Shown here piece by piece: positions 2,682-57,207 of a stretch of DNA of 57,730 nt. The position numbers and the translations under genes were made by a program. The stretch comes from Planctomycetaceae bacterium (lineage in GTDB: Bacteria > Planctomycetota > Planctomycetia > Pirellulales > Pirellulaceae). Position 1 is the stretch's first letter. Every line of letters starts with the position of its first letter. The stretch spans positions 1 through 57,730 of the forward strand of contig SKZY01000109.1 of assembly GCA_007127095.1 (NCBI GenBank), in the 5' to 3' direction. A model generated the notes under the pieces. That model was not told where the DNA came from. It made no database searches and saw only the letters and a list, made by a program, of their open reading frames with translations.

Positions 2682-2754
2682 GGTGAACTCCGGGTTGGAC
2701 AGGGTTGGGCAGGGCAGGGCAGGTGAGGAATGGGCAGGTGAGGAAACGTGCCGA

Positions 2755-9840: not shown

Positions 9841-10348
9841 CCCCCCTTGTGAAAAGGAACTCGACCGCGGCGCCGCCGAGGATCAACCCGAATTCGACTG
9901 GCCGGGAGACGCGTCAGGACGTTTGACCGCGACGCGAGCCCGGCAGGAACCACCGGTGGCAAGAGGAGCGAAGGAGGTGCCGAAGTCGGGGCATGGGGTA
10001 GTAGCGGTGCTTCGTCGGTCCGCAGGGTTGAGTAGCGTGGCTAGGGACGCCATTAAAGTCGCGGCTGCCGTGAGGGGCGGTGCAGGCGATCGTTTTTTAG
10101 GCAGTTGGTGCTCAGCGGTTGGGCAGGGCAGGGCAGTGGGCAGTGGGCAGTGAGGGAGTGAGGGAGTGAGGGATTGGGGATTGGGGATTGGGGATTGGGG
10201 AGCGGGGAGTGGGGAGTGGGGCGGTGAGGGGGTGTTGTTCGGTGGCTGGCGATACGCGCCGGATTCGGCGTGACGTATCTTGGGATGACTGCGGTGAAGG
10301 AACCGCCGCAGTCACGCCCCGCTCCTTCTGGTCCGAGAGTCTTGCATC
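9841..10348. other. Gene-free gap upstream of ppk1
   Basis: This 508-bp stretch has no convincing gene. The short open frames in it lack family similarity and overlap simple repeats. It contains the G-rich tandem repeats at 10121-10231. No clear promoter for ppk1 was recognised. Confidence 0.7.
10121..10231 (+). repeat. G-rich simple tandem repeats
   Basis: Short G-rich units follow one another: GGGCA (10121-10135), GGGCAGT, GAGGGAGT, then four copies of the 7-mer GGGGATT from about 10171, then GGGGAGT-like units. All G runs are on the plus strand. The tract could form G-quadruplexes and may vary in length between strains. It includes two overlapping GGGCAGGG octamers (10121 and 10126). Confidence 0.85.
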
Positions 10349-12667
<2,319 letters not shown>

Positions 12668-17490: not shown

Positions 17491-19209
17491 CTATTGCGGC
17501 GGCCGGCCGATCGACGGATCATCTTCGTCCGTCGACGGTGGTTCGTCCGATTCGATCGTCTCGAGCAGGTCGTCGGGAATCGGTGGAGCGAACCGAGGCT
17601 CCTCCGTTTCGTCGGCTTCCTCGAGCAGGAAGGGGCTCGGCTCGGTATCGTCCAAACTTGGCTCGGTTTCGCTTGTCGGCCAAGTCAGTTCGCCGGTCGT
17701 GGGGTCGGTGACCAGCGCCGCCGCCTCGCTGCTGTCGTCCTGATCGAGTTCGACTTCCGCCAGTTCGACATCTTTTAACTCATCGTCCCATTCGCCATCC
17801 AACTCGTCGTTAAACCGCTGGTCGGCAGCATCGCCGACGGCCGATTCTTGGCTGGCGAGCGGGGCGTCGAAAACGATCGCCGGGGCAGGGGAGGGGGTGA
17901 TCGCTGGTTCGGCGACTTTACCGCCGAGGTCGGGAAAGATCTGTTCGACATTCCCACGCAGAACTTGTTCTCCCAGTTCGATCGCTTGACCTTCGTCCCA
18001 ACCTCGACCGAGGATGAAGTCTTCGACCAAGATATCGGCGAGCACCCGCCGATACATGTCGAACTTCGGGGCGATGAACTCCAACTTGTAGGCGTCGCTG
18101 TAGTAACCGATCTGTTTGTTCCGCGGCACCGCCTCGAGTCGAGCCGCGGCGTCGCGGCGGATGAACGTCGGTGTATTGCTGTACCACCAATGTCCGTTGG
18201 TGATCACGTTGGGGAAGATCCAGGCGTAGCTGACCAGTTCCTGATTGGTGACGCTGGCCAGCACCGAGACGGGGAACTTGACTTGGGGGAAGGCGTTGAA
18301 CAGGTCGGCGTACTGGATCAGCGAAACGCGGCTGTCGTAGAGGTCGCGTCCTTGATGGACACCGTCGCGGTAGACATCGCGATTGACGCCGATCATCAGA
18401 TCGAACGGTAGCCCGTAGTGGTCACAGAGTTCGGCAAGTGTCCAGAAAACACGTTTAGCCAAGGCGGCTCGATGCGACGCATCGGCGGCGGCTCCTTGGC
18501 TCAAGATCGCTTGCAGGGCTGTGCTGGCGCGACCGTCCGAGACGCGGCCGGGGGAGAAATCGGGCGGCAACGAGATCGCACAGGCTCGTGCCCCGTTGGC
18601 GACGAAGTGTCGAAAACGCTGCTCCAGTGATTCGCGGAGCGACTCCAGCGATCCGGTCAATTCGATCTGAGACGCTCCCCGCAGCCGATCACGGACCTCG
18701 GGCTTCGCGAGGTGAAACACGAGATCATCGGTTCGCAGGCAGGGGATGTAGGTCTGCGTATCGAACCGTTCCAGCGGGTCATCGAAATCGTTGGTCAGGA
18801 AGACCGCCGACACGTTCGATCTTCGCAGCACCTCGGTCGGCCAGTCCGCCGACTCCATCGCCGTCTCGGCCTGGTCGTAGAGCGTTTCCCAGTTGTCGGG
18901 CGTGACCGAATCGGCTTCGAATCCGTAAAATCGCTTGCAGATGTCGACCAACCAGGCGAACTGAGCGGTATTGCTCAGCGGCGCTAGGCCGCCGACGAGC
19001 CGTTCGACGAGTTCTCGTGGTGATAGTCCCGGCGATTCGATCGCGTCCTTCGGCATCCCCGAGGCGTGGGCCAGTTCGGTGTAGTAGTGATAACCGAGCA
19101 GGTCTGCGAGGGTGTGCGACGCGGGGTCGTGGGGATTGATATGCGTGTGCGGGTCGATCAGTGTGACCTGCCGCAGTGCGTGCAGCACCGTATCGCGGGG
19201 CGATGTCAT
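17491..19209 (-). CDS. Uronate isomerase-like amidohydrolase with acidic tail
   Basis: The first 440 or so residues of this 572-residue protein resemble the glucuronate isomerase (UxaC) branch of the amidohydrolase superfamily. UxaC interconverts glucuronate and fructuronate at a metal site. Visible features are the N-terminal metal-binding HTHINP, the W-x-TEVLRRSNVSAVFLTNDFDDP segment, and the later ITNGHWWYSNTP and GYYSDAYKLEFIAPKF segments. From about 445 the sequence becomes a long acidic, Glu/Asp/Pro/Thr-rich tail of about 125 residues, absent from typical family members. The start at 19209 gives a natural N-terminus. No other uronate-pathway gene is adjacent, so the substrate is uncertain. 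Confidence 0.8.
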   Translation of the reverse strand: MTSPRDTVLHALRQVTLIDPHTHINPHDPASHTLADLLGYHYYTELAHASGMPKDAIESPGLSPRELVERLVGGLAPLSNTAQFAWLVDICKRFYGFEADSVTPDNWETLYDQAETAMESADWPTEVLRRSNVSAVFLTNDFDDPLERFDTQTYIPCLRTDDLVFHLAKPEVRDRLRGASQIELTGSLESLRESLEQRFRHFVANGARACAISLPPDFSPGRVSDGRASTALQAILSQGAAADASHRAALAKRVFWTLAELCDHYGLPFDLMIGVNRDVYRDGVHQGRDLYDSRVSLIQYADLFNAFPQVKFPVSVLASVTNQELVSYAWIFPNVITNGHWWYSNTPTFIRRDAAARLEAVPRNKQIGYYSDAYKLEFIAPKFDMYRRVLADILVEDFILGRGWDEGQAIELGEQVLRGNVEQIFPDLGGKVAEPAITPSPAPAIVFDAPLASQESAVGDAADQRFNDELDGEWDDELKDVELAEVELDQDDSSEAAALVTDPTTGELTWPTSETEPSLDDTEPSPFLLEEADETEEPRFAPPIPDDLLETIESDEPPSTDEDDPSIGRPPQ

Positions 19210-23711: not shown

Positions 23712-24725
23712 GTGTACGAAACCGTAGCCCTAGTCGGTGCCACCGGTGCGGTGGGCCGAATCGTCCTGGACCAACTCGCCAGTCGCGGGTTTCCTCATAA
23801 GCGACTGAAGTTGTTGGCATCGTCGCGTTCGGCCGGCAGCGTCGTCCGTTTTGGCGACCAGGATTTGGTCGTCGAACTGCTCGAACCGACAGCGTTCGCC
23901 GGTGTCGATCTGGTGATCGCCAGCACGCCCGATGAGGTCGCTGCCGAGTTCGTGCCATGGGCGGTTGAGGCCGGCGCCGTCGTGATCGATGAAAGCGGCT
24001 ATTGGCGAATGAAGCCCGAGGTTCCGCTGGTCGTCCCCGAGGTCAATCCGGAAGCGGCACTGCATCACAACGGCATCATCGCCAGCCCCAACTGCAGCAC
24101 GACTCAGATGGTCGTGGCGTTGGCACCGCTGCACCGTGAGGCGAGGGTGCAGCGCGTCGTGGTCAGCACTTACCAGGCGACCAGTGGGGCAGGGCTGGGC
24201 GGTAGTGCGGAACTCCACCACAGTTCGCAGGAGGCGCTCGCCGGAAGGACTGCGCCGGCCGCTGTGTTTCAGCACCCGATCGCTTTCAACCTGATCCCGC
24301 AGATCGGCAGCGAGAAGGAGCAGGGATACACCTCCGAAGAAATGAAGATGGTGTATGAAACGCGAAAGATCCTCGGCGACGAAGAGATTCGCGTCTGTCC
24401 GACCTGTGTCCGCGTTCCGGTTTCGATCGGTCACAGTGAATCGATATTGGTCGAGACGGAGCGACCGATTTCGCTCGACCGCGCCCGTGAACTGTTCGCG
24501 GCCGCCCCCGGCGTCACGTTGGTCGACGACTTGGCCGAGCGGCAATATCCGATGCCGCTCGATTGTGAGGGGCGCGACGACGTCTTCGTCGGTCGGCTCC
24601 GCAAAGACATCAGCAGCCCGAACGGCTTGGCGTTCTGGTGTGTCAGCGACAATCTCAGGAAGGGGGCCGCGACCAATGCCGTCCAGATCGCTGAACTGCT
24701 CGTCAAGCAAGTTCCGGTCGCTTGA
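23712..24725 (+). CDS. asd: Aspartate-semialdehyde dehydrogenase
   Basis: Asd reduces aspartyl phosphate to aspartate semialdehyde, the branch point for lysine, threonine, methionine and diaminopimelate. The 337-residue protein has an N-terminal Rossmann motif (ALVGATGAVG), the catalytic Cys128 in ASPNCSTTQM and the family segment STYQATSGAG. A later His-containing stretch (RVPVSIGHSE) fits the catalytic histidine region. The start is GTG at 23712, because the Rossmann strand begins four codons later. The stop codon overlaps the truA start (TTGA), which suggests translational coupling. Confidence 0.97.
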   Translation: MYETVALVGATGAVGRIVLDQLASRGFPHKRLKLLASSRSAGSVVRFGDQDLVVELLEPTAFAGVDLVIASTPDEVAAEFVPWAVEAGAVVIDESGYWRMKPEVPLVVPEVNPEAALHHNGIIASPNCSTTQMVVALAPLHREARVQRVVVSTYQATSGAGLGGSAELHHSSQEALAGRTAPAAVFQHPIAFNLIPQIGSEKEQGYTSEEMKMVYETRKILGDEEIRVCPTCVRVPVSIGHSESILVETERPISLDRARELFAAAPGVTLVDDLAERQYPMPLDCEGRDDVFVGRLRKDISSPNGLAFWCVSDNLRKGAATNAVQIAELLVKQVPVA

Positions 24726-25591
24726 GTTCGGCTGAAACCGCCACGGCCGATTGCAAGCAAGCCGGGGCGGCGGCCGATTCGCGGACCTTCAAGCTGACCG
24801 TGGCTTATGATGGGACTCGTTATGCCGGCTGGCAAGTTCAGCCCAAGCGTGAAACGATCCAGGCGGCTCTGGAAAGGGCGATCGCTCAAGTGTGTCGTGA
24901 GCGAGTCCGCGTGACCGGCAGTGGTCGGACCGATTCGGGCGTTCATGCCATCGGCCAAGTGGCCAGTTTTTCGCTCACCGCTTGGCGAGCCGGTGCCGCC
25001 GATTTGACCCGGGCGCTGAACAGCAAGTTGCCAGCCGACATCAGTGTCCGACAGACCGAAGACGCGGTCGCCGATTTTCATGCGATCCGTGACGCGATCG
25101 GCAAGCGGTATCGCTACCAACTTCGTGTCGGTGGGAACCGCGACGCCTTCGATTATCGCTATCGCTGGCATTTGGCCGGCCCGATCGACCTCGACGCGAT
25201 GCGGCAGGCGGCCGCGGCGATCCGAGGGCGACAGGATTTTGCCAGTTTTCAAGCTGCTGGCAGTGACCGGAAAACGACGGTGCGCGACATTCGCGATCTC
25301 GTCCTGAGCGAACAGGACGGGGTAGGGCAGGGGGAGGAATCGCCCGGCCGGTTGTTGGCGATCGAGGTCGAGGCGGACGGTTTTCTCTACAACATGGTTC
25401 GCAACATCGTCGGCACACTGGTGGAAGTCGGGCGTGGAAAACGATCGCCCGACTGGGTCGGCGAGGTGATCGCGGCCCGAGACCGAAGGGTCGGCGGACC
25501 GACCGCACCGGGACATGGCCTTTGTTTGTTGTCGGTCGACTACCCGCCCGAAGTGCTCTTGTCGTCTTCGGAGCCGAGCCGATGCGAGTGA
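24722..25591 (+). CDS. truA: tRNA pseudouridine synthase A
   Basis: TruA converts U38-U40 of tRNA anticodon arms to pseudouridine. The 289-residue protein has the N-terminal LTVAYDGTRYAGWQ, the catalytic Asp71 in GSGRTDSGVHA, and the C-terminal FLYNMVRNIVGTLVEVG. The only plausible start is the TTG at 24722, which overlaps the asd stop. A linker around residues 200-210 is enriched in Gly/Glu (GVGQGEESPG), coinciding with two GGGNAGGG octamers (25320 and 25325). The 3' end overlaps the glycosyltransferase start by 10 bp, so asd, truA and the glycosyltransferase probably form one operon. Confidence 0.96.
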   Translation: MSSAETATADCKQAGAAADSRTFKLTVAYDGTRYAGWQVQPKRETIQAALERAIAQVCRERVRVTGSGRTDSGVHAIGQVASFSLTAWRAGAADLTRALNSKLPADISVRQTEDAVADFHAIRDAIGKRYRYQLRVGGNRDAFDYRYRWHLAGPIDLDAMRQAAAAIRGRQDFASFQAAGSDRKTTVRDIRDLVLSEQDGVGQGEESPGRLLAIEVEADGFLYNMVRNIVGTLVEVGRGKRSPDWVGEVIAARDRRVGGPTAPGHGLCLLSVDYPPEVLLSSSEPSRCE

Positions 25592-26751
25592 TGCACGTGA
25601 TCACGCGGATGATCGTCGGCGGTGCCCAAGAAAACACGCTTTACAATTGCCGCGATCTGTTGCGTGAACACGGTGATGACGTGTTATTAGTTACCGGGCC
25701 TGCTGACGGTCCCGAGGGCGACTTGATCGAGCAGGGAGGGGCAGGGGGGGTTGAGGTTCGCGTCATCCCGTCACTGCGTCGGGCGATCCGTCCGGTCGAC
25801 GACCGTCGGGCATTGCGTGACTTGGGGCGATTGATCGCTGATTACCGTCCCGATGTCGTCCACACCCATAGTGCCAAGGCGGGTTTTTTGGGTCGCCGAG
25901 CGGCCTGGTCGGCCGGGGTTCCGGCGATCGTTCACACCGTCCACGGGGCGCCGTTCCATCCCTATCAGCCGCTGGCCGCCCGCCAACTGTTTCGCTGGTG
26001 TGAACGGCTGGCGGCCGGTTGGTGCCATCACATGATCTCGGTTGCCGACGCGATGACCGATCTGATGGTCGCCGCCGGCGTGGCAGGGCCGCAGCGTTTC
26101 ACCACCATTTACAGCGGGATGGATGTCGAGCCGTTTTTGGCTGCTGATGCGCAACGCGAACGGGTCCGTCGGTCGCTTGGCCTGGGTGATCAGGAGGTCG
26201 TCATCGGCAAGATCGCTCGACTTTTTCATCTCAAGGGGCATGACGACCTGATCACCGCGGCGGCGACGGTGTTGAAGTCGCATCCCAACGCCCGCTTCCT
26301 GCTAGTCGGAGACGGGATTCTGCGAGATCGGCTCGGCCAACGGCTGGCCGACTTGGGGATCGCCGACCGGTTCTTGTTCACCGGCTTGGTCCCGCCGGCC
26401 GAGGTTCCTGGGTTGGTCGCCGCAATGGATTTGTTGGTCCACACGTCGCTGCGGGAGGGACTCGCTCGAGCGCTCCCTCAAGCCTTGATCGCCGGTCGAC
26501 CGGTGATCAGTTACGACATCGACGGGGCGCGAGAGGTCGCGATCGACGACCAAACCGGTTTTCTCGTCCCGGCCGGCGATCGGGCGAGATTGGCTGAGCG
26601 AATCGGACGACTCGTCGGCGACCCGGCCGGCCGGCAGCGAATGGGCGAGAACGGACGTCGTCAGTTCACCGACCGCTTCCGTCACCAGTCGATGACCCGC
26701 CAAATCCGCGAACTCTATCTGCGTTTGCTCGATGAACGCAGGGTGCGATGA
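25582..26751 (+). CDS. Glycosyltransferase family 4 protein
   Basis: This is a 389-residue GT-B fold glycosyltransferase. The N-terminal half has the GT4-type opening MHVITRMIVGGAQENT and a VVHTHSAKAGFLGR loop. The C-terminal half has GKIARLFHLKGHDDLI, FLLVGDGILRDRL and the donor-binding EX7E-like region (REGLARALPQALIAGRPVI). GT4 enzymes retain the anomeric configuration and build polysaccharides or glycolipids from nucleotide sugars. The acceptor cannot be told. The ATG at 25582 fits the conserved N-terminus. A longer frame would run inside truA. The last codons and stop lie in a 16-bp tandem repeat array. Confidence 0.93.
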   Translation: MRVMHVITRMIVGGAQENTLYNCRDLLREHGDDVLLVTGPADGPEGDLIEQGGAGGVEVRVIPSLRRAIRPVDDRRALRDLGRLIADYRPDVVHTHSAKAGFLGRRAAWSAGVPAIVHTVHGAPFHPYQPLAARQLFRWCERLAAGWCHHMISVADAMTDLMVAAGVAGPQRFTTIYSGMDVEPFLAADAQRERVRRSLGLGDQEVVIGKIARLFHLKGHDDLITAAATVLKSHPNARFLLVGDGILRDRLGQRLADLGIADRFLFTGLVPPAEVPGLVAAMDLLVHTSLREGLARALPQALIAGRPVISYDIDGAREVAIDDQTGFLVPAGDRARLAERIGRLVGDPAGRQRMGENGRRQFTDRFRHQSMTRQIRELYLRLLDERRVR

Positions 26752-26820: not shown

Positions 26821-26979
26821 TCGTGGGGCGAAGTGAGGGCAGGGCGGTCCTGACCTTCCGCCGTGACGCATGTATCAATTATGCTGGTCGTCCGTCTGTC
26901 CCGGCGACGGGCCCGCCGGTAATCGGCGGATCGGCGATTTTCCGACCTGATGACCGGGGCCTTATCCCCCTGCGATCCC

Positions 26980-27940: not shown

Positions 27941-28900
27941 ATGAGCCTTGATTTCGAACGCGATGTGACCGAACTGGAAAATCAGATCGCGGCCATCGAG
28001 CGACAGACCCGCAGAGACGATGAAGAGGAATCGCGGCTCCGCGATCTACGATTGGCCAGAGTTGAGAAGCTGAGGGAAACCTATGCGAACCTCAGTTCCT
28101 GGCAAACGGTGCAAGTCGCCAGGCATAAGAATCGTCCTTATACAAAAGATTACCTGCACCTGGCGTTCGATGAATTCGTCGAATTGCATGGCGACAAGTT
28201 CTTCGGTGACGACCGCGCCATGTTATCGGGGTTCGCCAAGATCGATCGATTCAAGGTGATGGTGCTCGGGCATCAAAAAGGACGCACCTACAAGGAACGC
28301 GCTGCCTGTCATTTCGGATGTGCTCATCCCGAGGGTTACCGCAAAGCGATGCTGAAGATGCGGATGGCCGAAAAGTATCATCTGCCGCTAATCTGCTTTA
28401 TCGATACGCCGGGTGCTTATCCAGGGGTCGGCGCTGAAGAACGTGGTCAGGCTCAGGTGATCGCCGAGAGCATGTTTTTGATGAGCCGTTTACGGACGCC
28501 GATCGTCTGCGTCGTGATCGGCGAAGGCGGTTCCGGCGGTGCGTTGGGGATCGGCGTTGGCGACCGGGTCGCGATGCTCGAAAATTCCTACTACAGCGTC
28601 ATCAGTCCCGAAGGCTGTGCCGGCATCCTTTGGAAGAGCCACGAGTTCGCTTCGAAGGCCGCCGAGGCGTTGCGGTTCACGGCGAAGGACTTGTCGGGAT
28701 TTGGGGTCATCGATGACGTCATCAGCGAACCGCTCGGCGGTGCCCACCGCGATCATCACCAGATGGCGACACGGTTGAAGTCGTACCTCTCGGCGACGCT
28801 GGAGGATTTGGAGTCGACGCCGACCGACGAACTGCTCGAGGCCCGCTATGACAAGTTCCGCCGGATGGGAATCTACTTGGACGCAGCGGTCACCGCGTGA
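27941..28900 (+). CDS. accA: Acetyl-CoA carboxylase carboxyltransferase subunit alpha
   Basis: AccA forms with AccD the carboxyltransferase that makes malonyl-CoA for fatty acid synthesis. The 319-residue protein has the AccA N-terminal helical part (DFERDVTELENQIAAIE) and the crotonase-fold core. Visible core motifs are LHLAFDEFVELHGDKFFGDD, CFIDTPGAYPGVGAEERGQ, GEGGSGGALGIGVGD and SVISPEGCAGILWK. Length matches the family. No accD is nearby. It is the last gene before the candidate dif region. Confidence 0.98.
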   Translation: MSLDFERDVTELENQIAAIERQTRRDDEEESRLRDLRLARVEKLRETYANLSSWQTVQVARHKNRPYTKDYLHLAFDEFVELHGDKFFGDDRAMLSGFAKIDRFKVMVLGHQKGRTYKERAACHFGCAHPEGYRKAMLKMRMAEKYHLPLICFIDTPGAYPGVGAEERGQAQVIAESMFLMSRLRTPIVCVVIGEGGSGGALGIGVGDRVAMLENSYYSVISPEGCAGILWKSHEFASKAAEALRFTAKDLSGFGVIDDVISEPLGGAHRDHHQMATRLKSYLSATLEDLESTPTDELLEARYDKFRRMGIYLDAAVTA

Positions 28901-29010
28901 CGCCGGTGACGCTTGTCAGGAAGCGTCCCGGCGCCCGGGGTTTGGCGTGTCGGATCGATCGCCGTGCGACTTTGGCGGGGCTGGAAAGCCGGCGATCCGG
29001 CCGACCAGCA

Positions 29011-29038
29011 ACGTCCGATAATGCCTCTTATGTTGTAT
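29011..29038 (+). other. dif: Candidate chromosomal dif site (XerC/XerD)
   Basis: The left 11-mer ACGTCCGATAA matches the left half of B. subtilis dif at 8 of 11 positions. The 6-bp spacer is TGCCTC. The right 11-mer TTATGTTGTAT matches the XerD half of E. coli dif (TTATGTTAAAT) at 9 of 11. The arrangement of 11, 6 and 11 bp and the inverted TTAT ends next to the spacer are as in known sites. It lies in a gene-free gap, within the only interval where KOPS-like octamers switch strand. The assignment is by eye from remembered dif sequences. Confidence 0.6.
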
Positions 29039-29126
29039 TCGGCGGTCGGTTTTTGCCGTCTTTTACGCACTCGCCGCAGATGGCGTCGGCAGCGGGTGTT
29101 CTGCCCCGGCGTGGCCTTGGCGGGAT

Positions 29127-29250
29127 ACGGCGGCGACCGTGCCACACGGCTTCGCCGTTGCGTTGGGATGGGGAATGTTAACGCCATGGCGCAGCCATGT
29201 GGCCTCAGGTACGGCGGCGACCGTGCCGCACGGCTGCGCCGTTGCGTTGG
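29127..29250. repeat. REP-like repeats: 40-bp direct pair with an inverted middle copy
   Basis: A 40-bp unit at 29127-29166 (starting ACGGCGGCGACCGTGCC) recurs at 29211-29250 with two mismatches. A 17-bp part of it (29141-29157) recurs inverted at 29187-29203 with 14 of 17 matches. The inverted copy can pair with either flanking copy. This resembles a BIME-type cluster of REP elements. It ends exactly at the cvpA stop codon. Confidence 0.8.
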
Positions 29251-29994
29251 CTAGCGGTTGGCGCCAGGGACGCCGCGTCCGGCTTGCTGGTAGTTCGGGA
29301 CGTCTTGGGGCGGTAACCAAGGCGGCGCACCGACCGGCAGCGGCGGCGACGAACGCTCGCTGGCGGGCGAATCCCAGAACGAATCGGGGAGCGCTTCCGT
29401 CGCGAAGTCGACGGCTTCACCGACCGCCTGAGGAACCGGAGTCGCGGACTCGCTTTCGCTTTCGTTCGTGCCTGCATCGTCGTTATTGAACTTCTGATCA
29501 AACCGGCGCAGGTACGGGCCGACGACCTCATGAATCTCTTCGGGAATGATCGCCTCGCTCCGGTCGAGCACCGAGGCGATGTAGTGACCGCTCCGCGAAG
29601 CGACGATTTGTTCTCGAATGTTGTCGCCGAACAGCGTGACGCCGAACAGTGTCACCAGGATGCAGTAAAGGCCTCCTTTGGCGAGGCCGAAAAGCGCACC
29701 GATCTGGCGATCGAACTCACGCAATTTAAGTCGATCGATCGTGCTGCTGACCATCCGGAACGCGACCCAAATCACCAGCGACGTGCCTGTGAACAGGATC
29801 AGCATTGCCAAAAAACGGTTCCAGGGCGGGTCCGCCTGAATCGATTGGCTCAGCGGTTCGCGGAAGTTGTAAGCCACGGCGTAGCTGACGACGAGCGAAC
29901 CGATCGAGGCCAATTGCCAGGCGAATCCTTTGATCGCACCGAACAACGCGGTCCCGATCAGCAGCACCAACATGATGATGTCGTAGGTTTCCAC
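29251..29994 (-). CDS. CvpA family membrane protein
   Basis: This is a 247-residue inner-membrane protein. Four membrane segments fall in the first 125 residues or so (near 5-25, 28-45, 62-82 and 100-122). Between them is the family-typical basic loop DRLKLREFDRQIGALFGLAKG. This matches CvpA, a colicin V production accessory family of still unclear role in envelope homeostasis. The C-terminal 110 residues are an extension rich in Ser, Glu and Pro, which looks disordered and ends VPNYQQAGRGVPGANR. The gene stands alone, convergent with accA across the putative dif gap. Confidence 0.85.
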   Translation of the reverse strand: METYDIIMLVLLIGTALFGAIKGFAWQLASIGSLVVSYAVAYNFREPLSQSIQADPPWNRFLAMLILFTGTSLVIWVAFRMVSSTIDRLKLREFDRQIGALFGLAKGGLYCILVTLFGVTLFGDNIREQIVASRSGHYIASVLDRSEAIIPEEIHEVVGPYLRRFDQKFNNDDAGTNESESESATPVPQAVGEAVDFATEALPDSFWDSPASERSSPPLPVGAPPWLPPQDVPNYQQAGRGVPGANR

Positions 29995-31000: not shown

Positions 31001-31453
31001 TCAGTTCGGCAGTTCGGCCGAATCGAGCAGGATCGTGACCGGCCCGTCGTTGACCAGTGAGACCTGCATGTCGGCGGCGAAAATGCCCGAGGCGGTTGTG
31101 AGGCCGACGCGACCGACGCGCTCGACACAATATTGATAGAGCCTCGCAGCGTCGGTGGGGGCTGCGGCTGATGTAAAGGCTGGGCGTCGCCCTTTGCGGC
31201 AATCGGCATACAGGGTGAACTGGCTGACCAGCAGCACCTCGCCGCCGACGTCGACGACACTGAGGTTCATCTTGCCATCCGCATCGGCAAAGATTCGTAG
31301 GTTCAGCAGTTTATCGATCAAACGATCGGCGACCCGTTCGTCATCCCCCTGCCCTACTCCGACCAGTACGACCAAGCCGGGACCGATCGATCCTACCACC
31401 TCGCTATCGACCTCGACCTGCCCTTGAGTGACCCGTTGCAGTAGAAAACGCAT
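31001..31453 (-). CDS. dtd: D-aminoacyl-tRNA deacylase
   Basis: Dtd hydrolyses D-amino acids (and glycine) from mischarged tRNAs. The 150-residue protein has the full family set: the N-terminal MRFLLQRVTQGQVEVD, the active-site SQFTLYADCRKGRRPAF and the C-terminal Gly-cisPro motif NDGPVTI that rejects L-amino acids. Length matches the family. It is divergent from the zinc-ribbon DUF1559 gene, with only 17 bp between start codons, so their promoters must overlap the coding regions or each other. A KOPS-like octamer (31347-31354) lies inside it. Confidence 0.97.
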   Translation of the reverse strand: MRFLLQRVTQGQVEVDSEVVGSIGPGLVVLVGVGQGDDERVADRLIDKLLNLRIFADADGKMNLSVVDVGGEVLLVSQFTLYADCRKGRRPAFTSAAAPTDAARLYQYCVERVGRVGLTTASGIFAADMQVSLVNDGPVTILLDSAELPN

Positions 31454-31470: not shown

Positions 31471-32433
31471 ATGAGCGGAAGTGCCATGTCGTACCTGTTT
31501 ACCTGCCAGCATTGCCAAACCAAGACGTTGGTCGAGGACCGCTACAGTGGCCAATCGGGCAACTGCGTCACCTGTGGTTCGGCGATCACATTGCCCGATT
31601 TTGCGCCTCAGGCGGCGGTCGAGACTTCGCCGGTCGGCAATGCCGCTGCTTTTCGGCAAGGAGACCGCGGTTGGAGTCCGCAGACACGGCGGGCGATCGC
31701 CGCCACGATCGGATTGATCTTACTGGGGATCACCAGCGTCTCGATTGTCCGTTTTGGCGTACCCGCGGTGTCATCGCTGCAGGCCAATCGCTGGCGGGCC
31801 TCGTCCATTCGTGATTTGGAACAGGTGGCTGCCGCGTTGAACGCCTATGCCAGCGACTATGGCACCTACCCTCCCCCGGCTATCTACGGCGCCGACGGCA
31901 CTCCGCTTCACAGTTGGCGGGTATTGATCTTGCCGTATCTCGGTGAGAACGAATTGTTCGATCGATACGACTTTAACGAACCATGGAACTCGGCGGGCAA
32001 TCGACGACTAATCGGCCAGCCGCCCGCACTGCTTCGTAGCGGCGAAGTCGCGACCGCATCGCGTTTTTACTTGATCACGGGCCCGGGAACGTTATTCCCC
32101 CCTGCCCTGCCCCACGGATTCGCACCGCGCGGCCCGCGAGACGTGAGCGATAATCCTGGGCAGACCCTGTTGGTCGTCGAAGCGGTCCCGCCGGCGGCTG
32201 CGATGCTCTCCGGTTGGACCGAGCCGATCGACTTGGATGTCAGCCTGATGCGGGGCGCGATCGGCAGTTCACCTGGAGTCGAGATCGGCGGTGTCAGCGA
32301 AGATGGCGCCGTGGTCGCGACGGTTGACGGCCGCGGTCATTTCATCGATCAGCGACTGTCGCCGGTAACGGTGATGGCGTTGACGACGATCGCCGGCGGT
32401 GAACCGATCGCCGATGATATCTTCGATCGCTGA
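31471..32433 (+). CDS. Zinc-ribbon DUF1559-like membrane protein
   Basis: This is a 320-residue protein. An N-terminal zinc ribbon has Cys12, Cys15, Cys32 and Cys35 (TCQHCQ and NCVTCG). A single membrane segment follows (about 74-95). The outer part then has the DUF1559-type segment: RDLEQVAAALNAYASDYGTYPPP, GTPLHSWRVLILPYLGENELFDRYDFNEPWNS, and a late VDGRGHFID. DUF1559 proteins are planctomycete pseudopilin-like proteins. This one lacks the usual prepilin cleavage site and has the zinc ribbon instead. ATGs at 31471 and 31486 are both possible starts. It ends 20 bp from the convergent argG. Confidence 0.85.
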   Translation: MSGSAMSYLFTCQHCQTKTLVEDRYSGQSGNCVTCGSAITLPDFAPQAAVETSPVGNAAAFRQGDRGWSPQTRRAIAATIGLILLGITSVSIVRFGVPAVSSLQANRWRASSIRDLEQVAAALNAYASDYGTYPPPAIYGADGTPLHSWRVLILPYLGENELFDRYDFNEPWNSAGNRRLIGQPPALLRSGEVATASRFYLITGPGTLFPPALPHGFAPRGPRDVSDNPGQTLLVVEAVPPAAAMLSGWTEPIDLDVSLMRGAIGSSPGVEIGGVSEDGAVVATVDGRGHFIDQRLSPVTVMALTTIAGGEPIADDIFDR

Positions 32434-33849: not shown

Positions 33850-34725
33850 ATGCCCTCCCCTGCCCTGCGAGAGATCCTCGATCGTGTTGCCGCCGGCGAA
33901 TTGACCGTCGACGAAGCCGTCTTGCGAGTCGATGTCACGGCGACGGCTCAACTTCCCGGGGCGATGATCGACTTGGGCCGCGCCGCCCGCTGCCGGCTCG
34001 GCGAAGTGATCTATGGCGAAGGCAAATCGCCGGAGCTGGTCGTCGAGATCGCCAAGCGGATGATCGGCTCGGGCCAGGAGGCGTTGGTGACCCGCGTCGA
34101 CGCTGCGATGGCCGAGTCGATCTGTGCCGCGTTTGACCAGCACCGCTACCACCGCGACGCCCGCACCGTACGGGTCTCGTCCCGGCCGATCACCCCCCTG
34201 CCCCGCTACACTCCGGACGTCGATTCATCCGCCGCTTCATTCTCCGGGGCGACCGAAACGATGCGGCCAGCGGTCGGTTCCGCCGCAGCGATACCCCATG
34301 TCGCCGTCGTGACCGCTGGCAGCACCGACCGCCCGATTGCGGCCGAGGCGATCGAGACGCTCGATTGGATCGGCATCGCCGTCGACGATATCGAAGACGT
34401 CGGCGTGGCCGGCCCCCAACGATTGCTGTCTGTCGTCCCCCGGCTGCGCTCCGCCTCGGTGGTGGTCGTGATCGCCGGCATGGAGGGGGCGTTGGCTAGC
34501 ATGGTCGGCGGATATGTCGGTTGCCCGGTGATCGCGGTGCCGACGAGCGTCGGTTACGGATCGAACTTTGCTGGATTGACACCCTTGCTGGGGATGCTGA
34601 CATCGTGTGCTGCCAATGTCAGCGTGGTCGGAATCGATGCCGGCTTCAAAGGCGGATACGTGGCCGGATTGATCGCGACGCGGCTGCGCGATGCTGCGAC
34701 TGCCCGACCTGCGGCTCTTGTTTAA
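33850..34725 (+). CDS. larB: Nickel-pincer cofactor biosynthesis protein LarB
   Basis: LarB carboxylates the pyridinium ring of nicotinic acid adenine dinucleotide and hydrolyses the anhydride, the first step towards the nickel-pincer cofactor of lactate racemase. The 291-residue protein ends in a PurE-like domain with GVAGPQRLL, VVVIAGMEGALASMVGGYVGCPVIAVPTSVGYG and SCAANVSVVGIDAGFKGGYVAG. All are typical of LarB. The N-terminal part (REILDRVAAGELTVDEAV) also fits. larC and larE are not in the window. It starts a plus-strand run with nnrD (32-bp gap) and the MlrC-like gene. Confidence 0.93.
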   Translation: MPSPALREILDRVAAGELTVDEAVLRVDVTATAQLPGAMIDLGRAARCRLGEVIYGEGKSPELVVEIAKRMIGSGQEALVTRVDAAMAESICAAFDQHRYHRDARTVRVSSRPITPLPRYTPDVDSSAASFSGATETMRPAVGSAAAIPHVAVVTAGSTDRPIAAEAIETLDWIGIAVDDIEDVGVAGPQRLLSVVPRLRSASVVVVIAGMEGALASMVGGYVGCPVIAVPTSVGYGSNFAGLTPLLGMLTSCAANVSVVGIDAGFKGGYVAGLIATRLRDAATARPAALV

Positions 34726-34757: not shown

Positions 34758-35621
34758 ATGAACATGTCAGCAATCGGATCGCCCGCCGCTCCCCTGCCCT
34801 GGCCTGCGCGAAATGCCGAGAGCCACAAAGGCGATCACGGCCGCGTGGTACTGGTCGGCGGTTCGCGTGGGATGTCCGGTTCGATCGCGCTGGCGGCGAT
34901 GGCGGCATTGCGGAGTGGTTCGGGGTTGGTGTCAGCGATCGTCCCCGATCGTTGCCTCGAGACGGTGGCTGGGTTTGACCCCTGTCTGATGACTTTGGCG
35001 GCGCCTGAGGACCGTGTTGGACGGTTCGCGATCACGGCTGCCGGTTTTGTCGCTGATCGGGTCGCTTCGGTCGATGCGATCGGTGTCGGCCCTGGCATGG
35101 CGATCGGTCCGGGCAGCCGGATGGTCGTCCGACGGCTAGCCGAGCTGGGTCAAATCCCGCGAGTTTTCGATGCTGATGCACTCAACCTGATCGCTTCGCT
35201 CGACGGGCTGGCGATTCCTGGCCCCGCCGTGCTGACACCCCATCCCGGTGAATTGCAACGGCTGACCGGAGTCTCCGCTGGCGACCGTGGCAAACAGATC
35301 CGAGCCGCGGTGGCGTTGGCCGGCCGACTCGGTGTGGTGGTCGTCCTCAAAGGTGCCGCTACCTTGGTCACCGACGGCACCGTTCGCTGGTTCAACGAGA
35401 CCGGGAATGCGGGAATGGCGACTGGCGGCAGTGGCGACTGTTTAACCGGGATCATCACGTCGCTGCTGGGGCAACGGTTGTCGCCTTACGACGCCGCTCG
35501 TCTCGGCGTTTACGTTCACGGCCTTGCCGGCGATTTCGCCGCCGCGGCGTTGAGCCAACCGGCAATGACCGCAGCCGATATTCTCCGGCACCTCCCCCCT
35601 GCCCTGTCCCGGATGACCTGA
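34758..35621 (+). CDS. nnrD: ADP/ATP-dependent NAD(P)H-hydrate dehydratase
   Basis: NnrD repairs hydrated, inactive NAD(P)HX by dehydrating it. The 287-residue ribokinase-like protein has the N-terminal HKGDHGRVVLVGGSRGMSGS, LTPHPGEL, VVLKGAATLV and the nucleotide-binding MATGGSGDCLTGIITSLL, which holds the catalytic Asp. The NnrE epimerase domain, often fused N-terminally, is absent, so epimerisation must be done elsewhere. The stop codon overlaps the next start (TGATG), indicating translational coupling. The N-terminal codons hold one KOPS-like octamer and the C-terminal codons another. Confidence 0.93.
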   Translation: MNMSAIGSPAAPLPWPARNAESHKGDHGRVVLVGGSRGMSGSIALAAMAALRSGSGLVSAIVPDRCLETVAGFDPCLMTLAAPEDRVGRFAITAAGFVADRVASVDAIGVGPGMAIGPGSRMVVRRLAELGQIPRVFDADALNLIASLDGLAIPGPAVLTPHPGELQRLTGVSAGDRGKQIRAAVALAGRLGVVVVLKGAATLVTDGTVRWFNETGNAGMATGGSGDCLTGIITSLLGQRLSPYDAARLGVYVHGLAGDFAAAALSQPAMTAADILRHLPPALSRMT

Positions 35622-50911: not shown

Positions 50912-50960
50912 ACGCCAGCCATTACCTCTCCCCTGCCCTAACCTTGCACGGAGCCCCAGC

Positions 50961-56969: not shown

Positions 56970-57207
56970 TTTAACCGATTCCTGAGCGATCCTGGCTAGC
57001 GATTCCTTGGCGGCGGAGAAAGTAACGAGAGCGGTCCGAGAATCCGCCTCCCTGCCCTACTCTGCTACGGTGCCCCGAACTGGCGGAGGATGTCGGTGTC
57101 CGTGCCTAACGGTTTGCTTCGGCGTTTGGCTGACGGTTCGAACGTCTTGACGACTTCCGCTACGAGTCGATGGCGGTTTTACTTTGAACCACTATGGCGG
57201 AGGTGTT

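Follow-up and report, generated by a model that had tools for sequence, protein, structure and literature searches.

A predicted dif site between accA and cvpA in a Pirellulaceae bacterium, and its position relative to dnaA, GC skew and parS in related chromosomes

The accA–cvpA gap and the 28-bp site

In the window, by which the whole analysed stretch of 57,730 nucleotides is meant, the convergent genes accA and cvpA are separated by a gap of 350 bp, and within this gap, on the + strand, lies the 28-mer ACGTCCGATAA-TGCCTC-TTATGTTGTAT (window 29011–29038; Table 1). A preliminary description of this DNA had placed in the gene-free gap between accA and cvpA an 11-6-11 site resembling XerC and XerD binding sites; the sequence was confirmed at these positions, both neighbouring genes are supported by Pfam matches, and the site proved to be unique in the genome. 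The same description reported that the left half matches B. subtilis dif at 8 of 11 positions and the right half the E. coli XerD site at 9 of 11, and both counts hold against the arm sequences of these two species.

In E. coli, B. subtilis and P. aeruginosa, dif is a 28-bp site of 11-6-11 organization that is present once per chromosome, is served by XerC, XerD and the FtsK gamma domain, and is the point upon which GGGNAGGG-type octamers (KOPS) converge. XerCD act on dif, and the FtsK gamma domain reads KOPS and activates XerD. The 28-mer shares the anatomy of dif, viz. two 11-bp arms, a 6-bp centre and the inner letters ATAA...TTAT. A search with the arm pattern, in which up to 3 mismatches were allowed, gave one match in the window and none in 100 shuffles of it. 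In the organism's own genome (5.16 Mb, 475 contigs) there was again one match and none for the reversed control; as to whether a better dif match exists elsewhere, the own genome holds no further site within 3 mismatches. Judged from its sequence, the 28-mer is almost certainly the site at which chromosome dimers would be resolved, i.e. dif, and it is referred to as such below.

Directly after the 28-mer, at 29040, a weak terminator-like stem begins (one found, with a mean of 0.5 expected). There is also a GC-rich direct repeat of 41 nt beside dif (window 29126–29166 and 29210–29250), the copies of which are 95% alike and 84 bp apart and which has inverted-repeat partners. The core of this repeat was absent from all other loci examined, its own locus being the only one where it was found.

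Table 1. Features of the window that are discussed in the text, with their positions and strands.
Feature	Position	Strand	Remarks
Predicted dif, 28-bp XerC/XerD recombination site	29011..29038	+	unique in genome; 36/40 genomes; 349/396 of order; conservation ends at edges
Left (XerC-type) arm ACGTCCGATAA	29011..29021	+	near-identical across listed loci; fixed in 87 aligned rows (imposed by the row filter)
6-bp central region TGCCTC	29022..29027	+	differs between relatives: TGTTTC, TGCCTC, TGTTTA, TGCCCC, others
Right (XerD-type) arm TTATGTTGTAT	29028..29038	+	TTATGTT constant; outer bases vary (CGGT, GTAT, CGTT, others)
Additional conserved A flanking the left arm	29010..29010	+	99% of 87 rows
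Additional conserved T flanking the right arm	29039..29039	+	92% of 87 rows
accA, linked to dif in relatives, no part in the mechanism	27941..28900	+	Pfam ACCA PF03255, 444 bits; 68/80 accA loci with dif
cvpA (colicin V production family), convergent neighbour	29251..29994	-	Pfam Colicin_V PF02674, 85 bits
Predicted KOPS octamer GGGCAGGG, toward dif	2707..2714	+	
Predicted KOPS octamer GGGCAGGG, toward dif	2712..2719	+	
Predicted KOPS octamer GGGCAGGG, toward dif	10121..10128	+	
Predicted KOPS octamer GGGCAGGG, toward dif	10126..10133	+	
Predicted KOPS octamer GGGCAGGG, toward dif	11030..11037	+	
Predicted KOPS octamer GGGCAGGG, toward dif	17883..17890	+	
Predicted KOPS octamer GGGCAGGG, toward dif	24187..24194	+	
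Predicted KOPS octamer GGGCAGGG, toward dif	25325..25332	+	
Predicted KOPS octamer GGGCAGGG, toward dif	25739..25746	+	
Predicted KOPS octamer GGGCAGGG, toward dif	26837..26844	+	
Predicted KOPS octamer GGGCAGGG, toward dif	31347..31354	-	
Predicted KOPS octamer GGGCAGGG, toward dif	32100..32107	-	
Predicted KOPS octamer GGGCAGGG, toward dif	32105..32112	-	
Predicted KOPS octamer GGGCAGGG, toward dif	33858..33865	-	
Predicted KOPS octamer GGGCAGGG, toward dif	34196..34203	-	
Predicted KOPS octamer GGGCAGGG, toward dif	34792..34799	-	
Predicted KOPS octamer GGGCAGGG, toward dif	35597..35604	-	
Predicted KOPS octamer GGGCAGGG, toward dif	50931..50938	-	
Predicted KOPS octamer GGGCAGGG, toward dif	57050..57057	-	

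Conservation of the site, its octamers and the Xer and FtsK proteins

With up to 3 mismatches allowed, the site was found in 36 of 40 genomes (the own genome included), as a single copy in each. It was missed at this threshold in G002, G004, G029 and G031, and the sites of G029 and G031 were recovered with the consensus of the order, ACGTCCGATAA-N6-TTATGTTCGGT. In a search of 396 genomes of the order, which from its named relatives we take to be the Pirellulales, the site was present in 349 genomes, and in 244 of the 253 that are of high quality, the reversed-pattern control matching in 7 of 396. Across the phylum it was detected in 91 of 294 genomes, and in family f21, which belongs to the same class, in 30 of 32. 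The preliminary description had left it to be asked whether relatives keep the 28-mer, and it is conserved in both close and distant ones, mostly as a single copy (320 of the 349 genomes have just one, and the other 29, which belong to several genera and above all to g125, have from 2 to 28).

An alignment of 87 loci on the site gave a mean of 1.73 bits per column inside it and of 0.19 and 0.32 in the 60-bp flanks; as conservation extends to a further base at either end (A in 99% and T in 92% of the rows), the block is of about 30 bp. The rows were chosen by a core pattern that required the left arm (with C or T at one position) and TTATG, and hence the core letters are fixed by the selection itself; this constraint does not apply to the centre, to the flanks or to the outer letters of the right arm. 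Within the retrieved stretches, dif accompanies accA at 68 of 80 accA loci (67 with a stricter pattern), and 5 of the 12 stretches where it was not seen end at most 0.5 kb from accA.

Surplus dif-type sites were observed in genus g125 of the same order (G281, G350, G338, G364, and G346), with 28 sites in G281 and eight in G350. These have other centres (e.g. TGTAGG, TGTATG, TGTGTA, and TGTCTA) and are mostly on small contigs, and in each of these genomes there is also a single site whose centre is TGTTTC or TGTTTG. From its sequence, the surplus has the appearance of a mobile element that is present in multiple copies and bears Xer sites.

Sites of this type were also encountered on viral contigs and, less clearly, on a plasmid. 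The pattern ACGTCCGATAA-N6-TTATGTT was matched exactly by 61 viral contig stretches (L273–L333), where a rough estimate of chance gives one or two; because the outer arm differs among them, many of these sites may belong to other hosts. A 46-kb viral contig, IMGVR_UViG_3300032167_007327 (L310:5940, L314:3160), contains two Xer sites and an integrase gene, and one of the sites is of the planctomycete type and adjoins a host-like oxidoreductase gene; to judge by this arrangement, the contig is possibly an element integrated at a planctomycete dif. A plasmid search with a 30-base dif consensus gave weak matches only, one of them on the Singulisphaera plasmid pSINAC01 (L334, about 2969–2993; NC_019893.1, 18968–18992; 25 nt, 88%, E 5), which adjoins a tyrosine recombinase gene and is perhaps a plasmid resolution site.

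The preliminary description had further stated that the polarity of KOPS-like octamers flips at the site, and this is the case throughout the window, where GGGCAGGG occurs to the left of dif 10 times forward and 0 times in reverse and to the right 0 times forward and 9 times in reverse. Within 20 kb on either side, the best switch interval extends from -2174 to +2336 relative to the site. A de novo scan for the most dif-directed 8-mer in the 20-kb flanks of 19 genomes, including the window, ranked GGGCAGGG first among the 21,664 words left after filtering by count (221 toward dif, 12 away, z 13.7), and the runner-up words overlap it. When pseudo-centres in the middle of the flanks were used as a control, the top z was 4.7, which again belongs to GGGCAGGG and stems from the gradient in its density; in 54 stretches distant from dif the top z was 4.2. 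More copies point toward dif than away from it in all 19 genomes, and in 16 of them dif falls inside the best switch interval or inside one of two equally good ones; in G036, G049 and G242 the interval begins 0.9–1.3 kb from dif. Seven of the 12 copies with the opposite orientation are less than 2 kb from dif. The density per kb is 0.18–0.29 in the first 2 kb, 0.54 at 2–5 kb and 0.15 at 15–20 kb.

At the 68 accA loci that have the site, some of which may be from the same species as the 19 scanned genomes, 259 octamers point toward dif and 17 away, with 61 loci for this polarity, none against and 7 ties. Three genomes of family f21 gave 23 toward and 1 away, and no GGGCAGGG signal was found at dif in G470 and G496, which belong to other families. 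As an octamer of the GGGNAGGG type that is oriented to dif on both sides, GGGCAGGG has the characteristics of KOPS, and we regard its identification as the KOPS of these bacteria, which is a prediction from sequence, with high confidence.

The proteins that would act at such a site are also present. All 19 genomes, the own genome included, contain a XerD that exceeds the curated cut-off, a second recombinase, scored as Xer-type rather than against a XerC model, and exactly one FtsK gamma domain. The second Xer scores 314–331 bits in 18 genomes and 270 bits in G470, where the matching region (G470:C1:1676221-1677030) has one TAG and two TAA inside it and may be a pseudogene or contain a frame break. 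The XerD of the own genome, at 358 bits, is above its cut-off of 329.6 and aligns over residues 27–310 of 316 with 1a0p, the XerD of E. coli; the own FtsK gamma domain aligns (E 8.8e-8) with 2ve8/2ve9, the FtsK gamma of P. aeruginosa. In its 11-6-11 site, Xer pair, FtsK gamma domain and converging octamers, the system resembles the dif-XerCD-FtsK-KOPS systems of E. coli, B. subtilis and P. aeruginosa.

Position of dif relative to dnaA, GC skew and parS

The preliminary description implied that dif would be at the minimum of the GC skew, i.e. at the terminus, and in this respect it was not borne out. In the window the GC skew is +0.066 to the left of dif and +0.041 to the right, its sign remaining unchanged, which in the fragmented own genome is the sole evidence concerning the axis, and in the complete chromosomes of relatives dif is away from the antipode of the origin marker. 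Nearly every genome examined has two dnaA-like genes (G576 and G649 have a single one). The shorter of these, which is the weaker-scoring and mostly of 340–435 aa, coincides in G010 and G041 with the origin indicated by GC skew; the better-scoring one is elsewhere. The smaller gene was used as the marker of the origin; it is found at position 82–247 in 15 of 21 closed chromosomes. The larger dnaA was also considered as the origin and rejected: in the 11 genomes that have a parS cluster (see below) this gene is never closer than 0.3 Mb to it, and in G010 and G041 it does not coincide with a switch of the skew.

Among the matches listed, 21 chromosomes of the order are in one contig, and in these the distance from dif to the small dnaA is 0.071–0.391 of the length (mean 0.258; for seven chromosomes lengths were rounded, and G041 was counted as a chromosome by its record description). 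These distances fit a uniform spread (KS p 0.24), and in all 21 dif is 11–43% of the chromosome from the dnaA antipode. G040, for which the distance of 0.143 was obtained by hand arithmetic, stands outside the 21. For 13 chromosomes of family f21 among the matches listed the distance is 0.231–0.495, and 12 of them are more than 5% off the antipode. The distance table leaves out genomes that are not in a single contig (G003, G022, G036, G181, G143, G238, G371, G117, G082, G092, G017, G071, G584, G502, G469, G649, G493, and the fragmented own genome), G576 with its one dnaA, and G470 and G496 from other families.

The GC skew was sampled in four chromosomes, with 20 to 22 stretches per chromosome and 20 kb per stretch, and in the dif flanks of ten more. 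It was clean in two of the four, G010 and G041 (CP036272.1), where it fits the axis of the small dnaA in 20 of 20 stretches each. The skew poles are near 0 and at 3.45–3.85 Mb in G010, with dif at 0.60 Mb, and near 0 and at 3.35–3.75 Mb in G041, with dif at 1.35 Mb. G188 has a weak skew (15 of 22 stretches agree with the dnaA axis and 8 with the axis through parS and dif), and G030 barely separates the two axes (14 vs. 13 of 20); the best free fit for G030 has its minus-to-plus pole at 5.2–5.55 Mb, which spans parS (5.517 Mb) and not dnaA. Over all 102 stretches, the dnaA axis agrees in 88 and the parS-dif axis in 45, the dif antipode replacing parS in this comparison for G041, G188, G015, G242 and G234. 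Based upon these results, dif is very probably away from the GC-skew switch in the family of the window.

In G470, a member of another class (L200/L201), the skew goes from +0.124 on the left of dif to -0.096 on its right, a change of sign that most genomes of the window's order lack, and a second dnaA is about 110 kb from dif.

A search for parS with the 16-mer TGTTTCACGTGAAACA was made in 16 genomes allowing up to 2 mismatches. As the reversed control gives 0–4 sites per genome, only clusters were counted. Clusters were found in 11 of the 16 genomes, with exact copies in 4 of these; ten are tight (within 3.5 kb) and the one in G029 is loose and weak. No cluster was found in the other five, where G015 and G040 gave no match and G041, G234 and G242 a single match each, at chance level (the dif distances of these dropped matches would be about 0.34, 0.41 and 0.34, respectively). 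Isolated matches with 2 mismatches were also omitted (three in G131, two in G029, and one each in G349, G102, G023, and G010). In all 11 genomes with a cluster, parS is at 0.438–0.500 of the length from dif (mean 0.472), for which the chance under uniform placement is 1e-10, and at 0.128–0.420 of the chromosome from the small dnaA, so that the usual position of parS near the origin is not seen. It is very likely, therefore, that parS lies opposite dif.

The octamers follow the same line. When stretches outside the dif flanks were examined in G010, G030, G041 and G188, 19 forward and 2 reverse copies of the octamer were counted between dnaA and dif, and 4 forward and 23 reverse ones between dif and the skew terminus, where the octamer is directed against the leading strand; the arm without dif has no polarity in the pooled stretches of the four (11 forward, 13 reverse), and in G188 polarity is weak beyond the dif flanks. 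G010 is the sole genome with a full octamer map, in which all 86 AGGGCAGGG sites of the chromosome were located. A free two-pole model fits 81 of the 86, with poles at 595,519–599,471 and 4.09–5.01 Mb; the first includes dif (597,754) and the second the parS cluster (4.571–4.575 Mb). A model running from origin to terminus fits 30 of the 86, and the best of 300 label shuffles fits 64. The reading of octamer polarity as a leading-strand signal was rejected, as only these 30 sites fit it, and in the sampled stretches on either side of the skew terminus there was no build-up that would indicate a second octamer pole there.

Proposed separate axes of replication and segregation, and other readings

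The explanation that we consider to be well supported, taking the observations jointly, is that of a dif site with converging KOPS on a segregation axis, running from parS to dif, that is uncoupled from the replication axis marked by GC skew. Its component that the GC skew reflects the true axis of replication is, taken separately, probable. The main alternative is a conventional chromosome, in which the true oriC would be at or near parS and dif would be the terminus, the skew switches and the small dnaA being misleading (a fossil or non-replicative skew). In favour of this reading, parS is usually near the origin (PMC7333895), a single axis accounts consistently for parS, octamers and dif in G010, all of 34 genomes examined for dnaA contain a second dnaA-like gene with a better score, and the pole interval of the free skew fit in G030 contains parS. 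Against it, the skew runs through dif without a change of sign, and the change occurs at the small dnaA and the point opposite to it, with which every sampled stretch of G010 and G041 agrees. Where the two axes predict different signs, 52 of 61 stretches favour the dnaA axis, and the larger dnaA is not near parS in any genome with a cluster. A conventional chromosome of this kind is hence unlikely.

That dif is the replication terminus and the GC-skew switch of its own chromosome is very unlikely. The octamers do switch at dif, and in surveyed bacterial chromosomes dif is close to the GC switch (PMC6199493, as far as its text is accessible), but the skew on both sides of dif in the window is positive and in all 21 related chromosomes among the matches listed dif is more than 10% from the dnaA antipode. 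Even less credence can be given to the site being the attachment site of a mobile element, or a Xer site of plasmid type, rather than a chromosomal dif: more than one dif-type match is seen in 29 of 349 genomes of the order, with up to 28 in one genome and other centres in one genus, and viral contigs hold such sites, but the site is single in its own genome, linked to accA at most accA loci, and flanked by housekeeping genes and converging octamers. A regulatory element or terminator of accA and cvpA, or a chance match, can practically be dismissed in spite of the position between two convergent genes and the weak stem at 29040, since many relatives keep the letters of the site where it is up to 5 kb from accA or inverted (12 kb in G040) and the number of matches expected in the window by chance is 0.

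Under the preferred explanation of uncoupled axes, and by analogy with the known systems, the left arm of dif would be bound by XerC and the right one by XerD. At the bud neck, which is the division site in these bacteria, FtsK would load on GGGCAGGG and be steered to dif from both sides, where its activation of XerD would resolve a dimeric chromosome into two monomers. As the octamers run from parS to dif, dif would be the last locus to pass through the division site. With GC skew marking replication and parS, octamers and dif marking segregation, which is the less certain part of this scheme, segregation would end at dif and not at the terminus of replication because the two axes are uncoupled in the order.

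The position of dif differs from that in the surveyed dif systems. In a survey of bacteria in which dif was more than 5% off in 113 of 2,027 chromosomes, the mean distance between dif and the GC-skew switch is 13 kb (PMC6199493); in contrast, this distance is about 2–3 Mb in G010 and G041. In Proteobacteria and Firmicutes, outliers amount to at most 3% according to the available text of Kono et al., 2011 (PMC3025954). From the same text, a displaced dif works inside the convergence zone of KOPS, and hence absence from the skew switch does not exclude a dif. In P. aeruginosa PAO1-UW, which has unequal arms, segregation similarly finishes at dif and replication elsewhere, as described in the accessible sections of PMC6199493; however, its GC skew switches at dif and its offset is of 0.68 Mb in one strain, whereas in the planctomycete order the skew is unswitched at dif, the offset is present in every closed chromosome compared, and parS is displaced too.

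A dif off the antipode has a precedent in the archaea, as the dif of Thermococcales is 120–142 degrees from oriC rather than 180, and polarised short sequences point there (PMC2958812, in the part accessible). The Thermococcales differ, by the same source, in their broad and ill-defined termination regions, in dif being at the summit of the polar-sequence skew, and in having one Xer and no FtsK, whereas in the planctomycetes the offset from the antipode is up to about 150 degrees (G010, G188) and the skew is unchanged through dif (G010, G041). In Sulfolobus, termination and dif are likewise uncorrelated (Duggin et al., 2011, as cited in the available text of PMC4999828), but this is an archaeon with three origins and not a two-armed, GC-skewed chromosome with FtsK. 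For the Planctomycetes, the survey of Kono et al. (PMC3025954, accessible text) reported a failed prediction (0 of 1 genome), and the dif of the window's order fills this gap, being the first planctomycete dif found in our search of the literature. In that search, which covered planctomycete dif, KOPS, oriC and parS, off-terminus dif and off-origin parS in partly accessible sources, with most subscription journals outside its scope, separated axes were unreported.

We are inclined to favour, with less assurance than the uncoupling itself, a picture of two independent maps, one of the small dnaA and the skew and the other of parS, octamers and dif, that are rotated against each other by an angle that varies from genus to genus, with segregation that would be largely post-replicative in some chromosomes. 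The replication of dif would be early and that of parS late in G010, G023 and G349, and segregation would there have to follow most of replication. Post-replicative segregation as such is put forward tentatively, as a possibility that falls somewhat short of an even chance. If true, it would fit the movement into the bud of a nucleoid that is already finished and condensed, FtsK acting as the pump. Gemmata and Planctopirus, two planctomycetes for which related observations exist, are outside the order of the window. In Gemmata, the nucleoid is seen in mother and bud together only at the later stages of budding (PMC2656463), and in Planctopirus limnophila ftsK is essential and several other genes for division and the wall are dispensable (PMC10632474); the accessible portions of these two papers make no mention of the position of dif or parS.

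Since dif and the GC switch adjoin each other in two bacterial surveys (PMC6199493; PMC3025954), a signal can hardly be assigned there to the process that sets it. A lineage whose dif and skew switch are megabases apart would make it possible to distinguish sequence signals driven by replication from those driven by segregation. It also raises the testable question of whether budding bacteria that lack the usual divisome may segregate their chromosomes after, and not during, replication.
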